Below, in pieces: positions 5,865 through 38,090 of a DNA stretch of 64,000 bases. Source of the DNA: Microcaldota archaeon. GTDB taxonomy: Archaea; Micrarchaeota; Micrarchaeia; Norongarragalinales; Norongarragalinaceae. Both the position numbers and the translations under genes were made by a program. Location: positions 62,001 through 126,000 of the forward strand of contig JACQQD010000009.1 of the NCBI GenBank assembly GCA_016207165.1. The letters run 5' to 3'. Positions within the stretch are counted from its first letter, which is position 1; each line of letters begins with the position of its first letter. The notes beneath the pieces were generated by a model. It did not search any database, had not been told where the DNA came from, and saw nothing but the letters and a program-made list of their open reading frames with translations.

Positions 5865-6419
5865 GTGTCTTTAGAAAAAACCATTGCGCGCATTGACGGG
5901 GAATTGTCGGAAAAGGAAAAGCGCCAGGACGTCGTTTTGGCGGATTCGCGGGTCGTGATTCGAAACTGCGCGAAAGCGATCCGGCACCTTCATACGGGCG
6001 ACATGGCGGAGGCCAAGAAAGTCGTCAAGGCGTTGGACGCCGACGTGGCGGCTTTGAAAAAAGTGGCCCAGGACTTTGAGCACATTGCTTCCAGCGCGTA
6101 CCAGGAGTACGTGGAAATCAAGTGCCTGCTTTCGTTGTTGGAGAAAAAAGAGCTTCCGACTCCTGGTGACCTCAAGGTGGATGACCAGAGTTATTTGGCG
6201 GGGTTGGCGGACTGCGTGGGAGAGCTTCGGCGGTCGCTTCAATTGGCGCTGAAGGCCGGAAAGAAAAAAGACGCGGATTACTTGTTTGGAAAAATGAATT
6301 ACATTTACGACCATTTGATGTTGCTGAAGTACTCCAGTTCCCTGGTGGGGCCCTTGAAGCGGAAGCAGGACATGATTCGAAGCCAAGTCGAACAAGCGCG
6401 AAGCGAGCTCTTGCGATAG
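5865..6419 (+). CDS. Translin family protein
   Basis: 184 aa helical protein, RQDVVLADSRVVIRNCAKAIRHLHTGD...YLFGKMNYIYDHLMLLKYS; GTG start. Confidence 0.75.
   Translation: MSLEKTIARIDGELSEKEKRQDVVLADSRVVIRNCAKAIRHLHTGDMAEAKKVVKALDADVAALKKVAQDFEHIASSAYQEYVEIKCLLSLLEKKELPTPGDLKVDDQSYLAGLADCVGELRRSLQLALKAGKKKDADYLFGKMNYIYDHLMLLKYSSSLVGPLKRKQDMIRSQVEQARSELLR
6369..6419 (+). repeat. Direct repeat copy 1: in-frame 3' end of the translin gene
   Basis: 51 nt gacatgattcgaagccaagtcgaacaagcgcgaagcgagctcttgcgatag; 49/51 identical to 6498-6548. Confidence 0.95.
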
Positions 6420-6497
6420 GAATTTGATTCGCGCGCAAGTCGGGGGTTCGGGGAAGCGTAGGACTATAGGGGGCGGAGCCCCCTGTGGTCCGGCAAC
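6420..6497. repeat. 78-nt GC-rich spacer with strong hairpin between duplicated translin 3' ends
   Basis: Contains ggactatagggggc-gga-gccccctgtggtcc (14-bp stem including two G:U pairs). Confidence 0.8.
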
Positions 6498-6548
6498 GAC
6501 ATGATTCGAAGCCAAGTCGAACAAGCGCGAAGCGAGCTTTTGCGTTAG
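6498..6548 (+). repeat. Direct repeat copy 2: untranslated copy of the translin 3' end including stop codon
   Basis: gacatgattcgaagccaagtcgaacaagcgcgaagcgagcttttgcgttag; encodes the same DMIRSQVEQARSELLR* with two synonymous changes. Confidence 0.95.
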
Positions 6549-6557
6549 TTGCCGCGT

Positions 6558-6764
6558 TTACTCTTGGTTGAACGTTTTTTCGTCCGGCGTTTCCGTGTTG
6601 GACTGAATTTGATTGGCTGGTTTCACGGTTTTTTCTTGTTTCGCGTCTTCGCTTTGGTTTTCGTCGTGCCCGACTTCGGCCTGGAATTGGATGGTGGAGT
6701 AGATGCCGACGATTAGAAGTCCGATTAAAATGATGACGCCGGCGGTGGCCAGGTTCAGTTTCAT
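6558..6764 (-). CDS. Small single-pass membrane protein, 68 aa
   Basis: MKLNLATAGVIILIGLLIVGIYSTIQF TM segment then acidic tail; upstream gaggtg SD. Confidence 0.65.
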   Translation of the reverse strand: MKLNLATAGVIILIGLLIVGIYSTIQFQAEVGHDENQSEDAKQEKTVKPANQIQSNTETPDEKTFNQE

Positions 6765-35871: not shown

Positions 35872-35913
35872 TCACTGGACGATGTGGTCCAGGGGTTGCA
35901 TGCGGTAGTTTTC
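35872..35913 (-). repeat. Direct repeat: untranslated copy of the 3' end of the glnA-linked Lrp gene
   Basis: Reverse strand gaaaactaccgcatgcaacccctggaccacatcgtccagtga = ENYRMQPLDHIVQ*; matches 35970-36011. Confidence 0.95.
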
Positions 35914-35969
35914 GCTTGGTCGCCCCGGGGAACCCAGGTTCCCCTGGCCCGCCCTGGGCCTCGCCCCTC
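35914..35969. repeat. 56-nt GC-rich element with two hairpins between duplicated Lrp 3' ends
   Basis: ccggggaacc-ca-ggttcccctgg and ggccc-gccct-gggcc. Confidence 0.85.
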
Positions 35970-36449
35970 CTATTGGACGATGTGGTCCAGGGGTTGCATG
36001 CGGTAGTTTTCTTTGATGACGTTGAGAACGACTTGCGTGTTGGAGCGCTCCACGTTGTCCAGTTTCAGGATTCTCTTGACGATGCGCGACAAGTCGCCTC
36101 GGTGCTTTACTCGGACAATGACCAGCGAATCCGCATCCCCGGTCACGTCGTAGACGGAAACGACTTCCGGAATCTTGGCGATTTCCTTCTGCACGCTCAA
36201 AAGCGCGCCCTTGTGGATGGTCACGCGAATGATGCCCATCAAGTCGTATCCCAGCGCCGGGTAATTCAAGTCCACGCCGAATCCCTGGATGATGCCTTTT
36301 TCTTCCAAGTGCTTGATGTGCTGGATGACGCTGGCCGGCGAGACCCCCAGCGTTGAGGCGATGGATCGGAAGGACTGGCGGCTGTTGGCCTTTAGTTCCA
36401 CCAGGATGCGTTCATCCAGCGGTCTTTTCTCATTCAGTTTTGCCTTCAT
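35970..36449 (-). CDS. Lrp/AsnC family transcriptional regulator
   Basis: DERILVELKANSRQSFRSIASTLGVSPASVIQHIKHLEEKGIIQGFGVDLNY HTH; divergent from glnA. Confidence 0.92.
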   Translation of the reverse strand: MKAKLNEKRPLDERILVELKANSRQSFRSIASTLGVSPASVIQHIKHLEEKGIIQGFGVDLNYPALGYDLMGIIRVTIHKGALLSVQKEIAKIPEVVSVYDVTGDADSLVIVRVKHRGDLSRIVKRILKLDNVERSNTQVVLNVIKENYRMQPLDHIVQ

Positions 36450-36489: not shown

Positions 36490-36525
36490 TTTTGTAAACG
36501 TTTGTTCTTTTTTCAACCTGAACGT

Positions 36526-36533
36526 TTTTATAG
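36526..36533 (+). promoter_or_regulatory. Putative glnA TATA box
   Basis: tttttatagg upstream of glnA ATG at 36586. Confidence 0.5.
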
Positions 36534-36585
36534 GTTTTCGGCATCCAAAGTGCATTCAATTGCCAATGGTGGGTGGTTTTGTTAT

Positions 36586-38025
36586 ATGAGCAAACAGGTG
36601 TTCGTGGAAGTGCCTAAACCGCAGGCGGGAATCGACGTCTTGTCCCGCATGAAGGAAGAACGCATTTCGTGGGTGGACTTGCAGTTCGTGGACCTGGTTG
36701 GCGCGCTTCAGCACATCAGCGTTCCGGCGCACACCCTGGACGAAAAAGACTTTGAAATCGGTGTCGGGAAGCTGGACGGCTCGTCGATCAAGGGTTTCAA
36801 GGAAATTTTTGAATCCGACATGCTTCTGTTGCCCATTGCCGAGACGTACCGCAAGATTCCGTGGGAACAGGATACGGCTAGAATTTTTTGTGGCGTCAAG
36901 GAAGTCTCCGGCTCCCGTTTTTCCAAGGACTCGCGGCATACGGCCGAGAACGCGGAAAAAGTGTTGGCTCAGAACGGGTTTGACACCAGTTACTGGGGTC
37001 CGGAAGCCGAGTTTTTCGTTTTCGACGAGGTGCACTACGACACGACGAACCCCCATCGGGGCCAAGGCTATTCCGTGGGCTCCATTGAGGCCGCGTGGAA
37101 TCCCACCGGAAAAGGGTACCCCATTGGGTTCAAGGGCGGCTATTACCCGGTGCCGCCGGCGGACACGTTGCAGGACCTCCGCCGCCGCATTTCCGACTCC
37201 CTGCAGAATGATTTCGGCATCCGGGTGGAAGCACACCACCACGAGGTCGCCACGGCCGGCCAATGCGAGATCAACATGCGGTTTGACAAGCTCACCTGCA
37301 TGGCCGACAATTTGTTGACGTTCAAGTACGTGGTGAAAAACCTGGCATACCAATCCGGCAAGATTGCCACGTTCATGCCCAAACCCATGTTCGGCGACAA
37401 CGGAAGTGGGATGCACACCAACCAAAGCATGTGGAACGCCGGCAGGAACCAATTCTACGACGCCAACGAGACGTACGCGCAATTGTCGCAGAACGCCATT
37501 TACTACATCGGCGGCCTCGTCGAGCACGGCCGCTCGCTGGCGGCGTTCTGCAATCCCACGACGAACTCGTACCGGAGACTGGTTCCCGGATACGAGGCGC
37601 CCGTGTACTTGGCGTACTCCAAGAGCAACCGGTCGGCATGCATCCGCATTCCGTACTACTTCTCCAACGAAGTCTCCAAACGCTTGGAGTACCGGGCCCC
37701 CGACCCCACGGCCAACCCGTATCTGGCGTTTGCGGCACTGGCGGCCGCGGGCTTGGACGGCATTAAGAAGAAAATCATGCCTCCCGCGCCTGTGGACGCC
37801 AACATTTACCACATGACGGTGGCGGAGCGCCGCCAGCACGGCATCAAGGAACTGCCTGGCGCCTTATTGGAGTCGCTGCACGAATTGGAGTCGGACCGCG
37901 ACTTTTTGAAGCCGATTTTCGCGGACGACTTGGTGGATTCGTACTTGACGCTCAAGTACGCGGAAGCCAACGCCGTTGGAACCCGGCCGCACCCGTATGA
38001 GTTTGACTTGTACTTGAACTCGTAA
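36586..38025 (+). CDS. glnA: Glutamine synthetase, type I
   Basis: DGSSIKGF, WGPEAEFFVFDE, MPKPMFGDNGSGMHTNQSMW, RIPYYFSNEVSKRLEYRAPDPTANPYLAFAALAAAGLDGI. Confidence 0.97.
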   Translation: MSKQVFVEVPKPQAGIDVLSRMKEERISWVDLQFVDLVGALQHISVPAHTLDEKDFEIGVGKLDGSSIKGFKEIFESDMLLLPIAETYRKIPWEQDTARIFCGVKEVSGSRFSKDSRHTAENAEKVLAQNGFDTSYWGPEAEFFVFDEVHYDTTNPHRGQGYSVGSIEAAWNPTGKGYPIGFKGGYYPVPPADTLQDLRRRISDSLQNDFGIRVEAHHHEVATAGQCEINMRFDKLTCMADNLLTFKYVVKNLAYQSGKIATFMPKPMFGDNGSGMHTNQSMWNAGRNQFYDANETYAQLSQNAIYYIGGLVEHGRSLAAFCNPTTNSYRRLVPGYEAPVYLAYSKSNRSACIRIPYYFSNEVSKRLEYRAPDPTANPYLAFAALAAAGLDGIKKKIMPPAPVDANIYHMTVAERRQHGIKELPGALLESLHELESDRDFLKPIFADDLVDSYLTLKYAEANAVGTRPHPYEFDLYLNS

Positions 38026-38090
38026 GCCCCGGGGGAAAGCGTTCCCCCTGGCGCTTACTCCGCCTCGCCCCCTTCGGTTGGGCGTGGCGG
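38023..38090 (+). repeat. GC-rich double-hairpin element directly at the glnA stop codon, similar to the element at 35914-35969
   Basis: taagccccgggggaa-agcg-ttccccctggcgctta then ccgcctcgcccccttcggttgggcgtggcgg. Confidence 0.75.

Follow-up and report, generated by a model that had tools for sequence, protein, structure and literature searches.

Within the window, i.e. the whole stretch of 64,000 nucleotides that was analysed, a translin-family gene is followed by a second copy of its own 3′-end, and the two copies are separated by a structured spacer. The arrangement is located in the gap between two convergent genes, the translin gene on the forward strand and an ORF for a small membrane protein on the reverse strand. 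The locus comprises the following features:

5865–6419, + strand: translin-family gene (PF01997, E 5e-8), the host of the element
6369–6419, + strand: gene-end copy 1, GACATGATTCGAAGCC...GAGCTCTTGCGATAG, functional and holding the stop codon TAG of the gene
6420–6497, + strand: element between the copies, 78 nt, X-end type (93 bits with the covariance model R1)
6423–6432, + strand: left motif TTTGATTCGC, recurrent, though absent from some copies of the element
6442–6453, + strand: conserved unpaired block GGGGGTTCGGGG, from the alignment of copies
6461–6491, + strand: 14-bp hairpin GGACTATAGGGGGC-GGA-GCCCCCTGTGGTCC, from folding
6498–6548, + strand: gene-end copy 2, distal, outside the gene at its present position, ending in ...GAGCTTTTGCGTTAG
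6558–6764, − strand: small membrane-protein ORF, convergent

The two gene-end copies are identical in 49 of 51 nucleotides and lie 129 nucleotides apart, measured from start to start; both differences are synonymous (CTC/CTT for Leu, CGA/CGT for Arg). The coordinates of the copies, their silent differences and the 78-nt spacer agree exactly with the original prediction, and folding confirmed the hairpin with a 14-bp stem that had been proposed for the spacer. Moreover, none of 200 shuffled versions of the 192-nt region folds as well as the region itself (z −3.6). The repeat obtained a score of 92, and since within-locus control pairs never exceeded 30, a chance origin is excluded. No further repeat of like size was found in the 2-kb neighbourhood. 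The layout is found again at approximately 40 other loci in several genomes as well as at a second place in the window, which in practice excludes an assembly artefact, and the existence of an element family rules out an accident confined to this locus.

As had been anticipated, the gene stays intact, in that translin retains its own end and stop codon. The accompanying claim that the edge of the element supplies the stop codon is clearly borne out at the glutamine synthetase gene and is plausible at the Lrp/AsnC-like gene (see below), but it is doubtful at translin. Here, each copy has a TAG of its own, and the gene-side copy likewise specifies Leu-Arg-stop, but through different codons; a random edge would not re-encode these residues.

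A family of short hairpin elements

The 78-nt spacer was used to search the genome of origin (G000; 1.27 Mb in 12 contigs), which revealed four strong places. Each lies directly 3′ of a gene end in the same orientation, and the end of the gene recurs beyond the element. The places correspond to translin (repeat of 51 nt), a pilin-like ORF ending in ENRDAMLGFLLR and a stop (35+ nt), tRNA-Arg (19 nt) and tRNA-Leu (a degraded repeat). The spacer is thus a repeated and structured unit, in line with the proposal that it represents a short inserted element, and the search for further duplicated gene 3′-ends suggested at the time uncovered the same arrangement at other genes. BLAST analysis of 98 relatives gave matches in 13 genomes. 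With the covariance model R1, copies were detected in 10 of the 11 family genomes (E ≤ 1) and in 15 of the 29 order genomes (E ≤ 0.01). The three species of the genus harbour 24, 17 and 27 R1 copies, and element-rich relatives contain about 10–27 copies each according to the covariance model, all counts being based on incomplete assemblies. Rfam 15 contained no matching family (the single hit, of 14.4 bits where the cut-off is 44.2, is at chance level), the phage and plasmid collections searched gave no match to the element, and in our literature searches such elements were found nowhere described.

The copies are about 50–190 nt in length and non-coding. The exact sequence TTTGATTCGCG occurs four times in the genome, each time within an element, and the unpaired block has sequences such as GGGGGTTCGGGG or GGGGGAATCCGGAG. 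The two-part stem of the copies ends where the element meets the second gene copy. Among 87 distinct copies, 88.7% of the cells pair and 12 of the 14 base pairs show compensatory changes; the covariation score of 0.413 compares with 0.201 ± 0.008 after shuffling and was reached in 0 of 500 shuffles. Two irregularities of the stem are conserved, a T.G wobble (75 of 86 copies) and, in most copies, an A.G mismatch, which suggests that the top strand is the one that is recognised. In some copies (L116, L124, L129 and the second copy at L105) extra hairpins are inserted within the loop of the main hairpin.

Besides this X end there is a second end type, Y, with the sequence GGTCG...CGACC, which was modelled as R2. 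Longer copies of about 130–190 nt contain both a Y and an X end, which face outwards. R2 detects two more elements within the window, listed here together with the adjoining genes, whose names were read by eye from the translated sequences:

35876–35913, − strand: distal 38-nt copy of the Lrp/AsnC-like gene end, identical, then GTGA (CAG TGA)
35918–35969, − strand: second element, 52 nt long and with a Y end, immediately behind the Lrp/AsnC-like stop codon (R2, 59.7 bits)
35970–36449, − strand: Lrp/AsnC-like gene, ending in CAA TAG
35974–36011, − strand: gene-side 38-nt copy of the Lrp/AsnC-like gene end
36502–38025, + strand: glutamine synthetase gene
38022–38073, − strand: third element, Y-like, with the terminal stem GTAAG:CTTAC (R2)

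Past the 38 identical nucleotides, the Lrp/AsnC-like copies continue with CAATAG and CAGTGA, respectively, which specify the same residues. No duplication was seen at the third element (38022–38073). Its terminal stem includes the glutamine synthetase stop codon and covaries with the usual GGTCG:CGACC.

Duplicated gene edges and empty sites

A flanking direct repeat, which corresponds to the edge of the neighbouring gene, was present in 44 of the 77 family copies with flanks. Repeats were called at a score above 30, the peak value of 236 within-locus controls; a few cross-locus pairs scored higher, up to 90, and presumably represent homologous loci. After removal of one locus that had been fetched twice, 43 of 76 copies carry repeats, with a length of 19–107 nt and a median of 31. 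The 33 of 77 copies without detectable duplication include most tRNA copies in inverse orientation. The commonest source of the repeats are the 3′-ends of tRNA genes, followed by those of conserved genes and by a few gene starts. Of the copies themselves, 30 of 76 are located at tRNA 3′-ends and just one near the 5′-side of a tRNA. When the element follows the tRNA 3′-end in the same orientation (18 copies), a repeat is nearly always present (16), whereas only 2 of the 12 copies abutting the tRNA 3′-end inversely possess one. At the tRNA-Leu genes of G002 (L145) and G001 (L146), two elements form a tandem array and the tRNA 3′-end is present three times.

Apart from translin, the protein targets include SMC, TFB, topoisomerase VI A, triosephosphate isomerase, UMP kinase, an aminoacyl-tRNA synthetase, a DRG GTPase and an aminotransferase, as named by eye from their C-terminal sequences; near many copies, genes were called by ORF length. 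At four gene starts (L079, L081, L092, L096) the element is inverse and the start codon lies within the repeat. Translin, SMC, Lrp and other genes have remained intact after the duplication. A frame-programmed use of copy 2 was considered and rejected, since at most loci, unlike translin, SMC and UMP kinase, the spacing is not divisible by 3.

Distal copies often contain 1–3 extra bases 3–6 nt from the hairpin end (L031, L035, L082, L092, L095, L098, L105 and others), and in about eight tRNA distal copies GTTC is changed to GTTGC. Selection on the tRNA through disruption of the T-loop is a weakened explanation, because the change of 1–3 nt is not specific for tRNAs but also occurs in protein copies, and L105, L031 and L082 spare the T-loop.

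Translin orthologues are present in 27 of the 29 genomes of the order. The empty site that the original prediction had proposed to look for was found in two relatives, G001 and G002, where translin lacks the insert. Likewise, the start of thiI is occupied in G001 by an element with an exact 33-nt repeat and in G000 by an insert of its own, and is empty in G002; the DRG gene is filled in G010 and empty in G009. Compared with the gene of G009, the distal DRG copy of G010 has 8 and the proximal copy 11 differences in 33 nucleotides, a comparison that tests only weakly which of the two is native. In G008, an identical 140-nt unit, composed of 71 nt and a hairpin element, is present at two unrelated loci (set L134, L135, L136), and a third locus, L136, contains the right (element) part of the unit and is cut at the contig end. 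No repeat flanks the unit copies, an argument against a gene end invariably travelling with the element. A reading frame is open through the unit into differing downstream sequence.

The nature of the differences between the two gene-end copies is informative. In 12 pairs of protein-gene ends, hand-collected from the repeats together with SMC of G001, 46 synonymous codon differences stand against 6 non-synonymous ones. The expected number of the latter is 38.6 under full neutrality and 20.5 if half of the changes were neutral, and a value as low as 6 was obtained in 0 of 4000 simulations of the half-neutral case. When SMC is omitted, 17 synonymous differences face 3 non-synonymous ones, where 8.0 are expected even with half of the changes neutral (P 0.016). 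The DRG pair, the repeat of which is below the score cut-off, was left out of this test, and the Lrp pair was found afterwards. At translin and Lrp the differences are confined to the last 5–11 nt. The SMC gene provides the most extensive example: in G002 the 102-nt copies display 26 differences and encode an identical protein end, and their divergence equals that from the G001 gene. In G001, which likewise carries an element at SMC, the distal copy keeps the protein end common to both G002 copies and the proximal one is changed.

As the differences are overwhelmingly synonymous, both copies acted as functional gene ends while they diverged, and this bias, together with the SMC pattern, shows the distal copy to be more than a neutral relic. 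The pattern would be accounted for by an element that brings a gene end along or that switches between an integrated and an excised state. We consider an insertion accompanied by duplication of the gene end, taken alone, to be very probable, and this part of the original prediction stands. It had further postulated a very long target duplication; the repeat may represent such a duplication made by a transposase or else, as suggested by the synonymous differences, an att-like pair of gene ends.

Candidate mechanism and relation to known systems

We lean, with some reserve towards the chain as a whole, to a family of very short, non-coding mobile elements defined by their structure, of which the translin spacer would be one copy. 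These elements would insert at gene edges, mostly at tRNA 3′-ends and otherwise at the 3′-ends, sometimes the starts, of conserved genes, and would leave the gene edge on both flanks, so that the gene survives. The copy joined to the gene would be regenerated on insertion and the distal one would be the displaced native end, as at the att sites of archaeal integrases. An imported gene end is a debatable part of this scheme, as exact duplications such as that at thiI in G001 need none. The enzyme is envisaged to recognise the folded top strand at the end of the element and to act in trans, a tyrosine integrase being the leading but unproven candidate.

With a length of 50–190 nt the element is too short to encode an integrase. 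Tyrosine integrases (PF00589) are present in G000, G001, G002, G004 and G008; G009 and G010 gave no match to PF00589, though both carry many elements. A physical association could be discarded for the integrase genes examined, none of which adjoins an element, and R1 found no match in the surroundings of ten tyrosine integrases, examined as loci not exceeding about 18 kb. Moreover, no larger autonomous element was found in the 20 kb upstream of the single locus searched, L080, where the copy lacks a local repeat.

Several other origins have to be weighed against this mobile family with integrase-like gene-edge joining. A MITE-like DNA element, moved by a transposase with a wide staggered cut, would create true target duplications of variable length, and the bias towards gene edges would reflect survivorship in a compact genome. 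The exact duplications (at thiI in G001, L039 and L101) and the identical 140-nt unit at unrelated loci of G008 are compatible with such an element, the enzyme of which would act in trans. However, 19–107 nt are long and variable for known DDE or Cas1 insertion, the preference for tRNA 3′-ends is strong, and neutral decay of the distal copy would be expected, yet the differences are synonymous; we deem this origin rather unlikely. Retroposition of a structured RNA by target-primed reverse transcription would fit the conserved 3′-hairpin with its strand-specific wobble and the variation in both the left part and the duplication length. It is strongly disfavoured and has a very small chance of being correct, as a protein with the RVT_1 domain (PF00078) was found in 0 of the 29 order genomes, the controls being positive. 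Casposition was rejected: Cas1 was not found in the element-rich genomes but only in G003, G013, G016 and G022.

The elements might also spread mainly when incoming DNA recombines homologously at orthologous gene ends and an illegitimate joint forms at the hairpin, with no dedicated recombinase. Such a spread would account for gene ends whose differences resemble those between alleles of separate species, as in SMC, and for the fact that the same genes (SMC, thiI) are struck repeatedly in different species. It leaves unexplained how one element reaches dozens of different genes, why a fixed hairpin end lies at the joint and why identical units occur at unrelated loci, and appears improbable to us. 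Even less can be said for immobile functional 3′-structures, e.g. terminators or processing signals, at which replication slippage duplicated the gene ends. Their strong fold and their nearly always intergenic position adjoining gene ends would be in line with such a function, but the elements occur in both orientations to the genes, at gene starts as well as ends, with the same sequence at unrelated genes, in arrays, and with empty sites in relatives, which renders this origin highly improbable.

Archaeal integrated mobile genetic elements (iMGEs) use tRNA genes and the 3′-distal parts of protein genes, including an AsnC regulator, crenarchaeal att sites comprise 29–69 bp, and one archaeal integrated element replaced the stop codon of its target with its own (PMC6563490). 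The elements described here resemble such tyrosine-recombinase iMGEs in the origin of the repeats from tRNA and protein 3′-ends, their crenarchaeal-att-like length, the intact gene, the AsnC regulator as target, the replacement stop codon and the tandem arrays. They differ in their size of about 50–190 nt, the lack of genes, dozens of copies per genome, the many targets and one common hairpin; the smallest cryptic element in a survey of thaumarchaeal iMGEs has 2.6 kb and encodes an integrase (PMC6563490). Casposons are similar in that they insert at the 3′-ends of tRNA and protein genes. A further parallel is that the casposase of A. boonei reads the T-loop motif TCAAATC (PMC6614799), a motif often broken by 1–2 inserted bases in the distal copies here. 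Casposons produce a target duplication of 14–15 bp (PMC6614799), whereas the median here is 31, no casposon-type terminal inverted repeats were seen, and the element-rich genomes are devoid of Cas1.

The elements share with bacterial MITEs and palindromic repeats such as ERIC, RPE and NEMIS that they are short, non-coding, structured, intergenic and present in many copies. Those repeats create short or no target duplications, and to our knowledge none of them duplicates gene ends of 20–100 nt. Prophage e14 and phage 21 bring along the 3′-end of icd with mostly silent changes; unlike the elements here, they are full prophages with an integrase. In integrons, the IntI integrase uses the attC hairpin with its R boxes, and a duplication of gene ends is not expected upon attC insertion. 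The integrative elements known to occupy gene ends are kilobase-sized plasmids and viruses equipped with their own integrase.

Elements down to 52 nt with a gene-sparing layout, a conserved hairpin and dozens of different targets in one small archaeal genome would be smaller than any others of this sort, and their enzyme would have to recognise a fold and not a target sequence. Tentatively, they may constitute a new class: gene-less DNA of less than 200 nt, the folded single strand of which would be read by an archaeal enzyme and joined to gene edges, with a duplication of 20–100 nt of the host gene that would make insertion harmless, and which would have spread to a substantial fraction of the tRNA genes in one lineage. 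Across an archaeal order, the elements also reshape the 3′-ends of tRNAs and conserved genes, with effects on gene annotation and on alignments of gene ends.

A few further observations were made in these genomes. In G000, a tyrosine integrase gene (L214, C1 at about 153–162 kb) ends at a tRNA-Met; this locus and L217 of G001 both contain a packaging-type P-loop ATPase and similar structural-looking genes and are likely proviruses. Downstream of tRNA-His (L160, L161) we observed an A/T-rich hairpin, TTTCTTTTC...GAAAAGAAA, together with a reverse TTTGATTCGC motif, and the same combination is contained in the tRNA-Leu introns of L145 and L146; these hairpins possibly represent a second element family. 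Finally, TTTGATTCGCGCAC-like motifs lie behind the translin and SMC stop codons and at a third place (L162, L195 and L037 (G008)), each without a hairpin element, and are possible element remnants.
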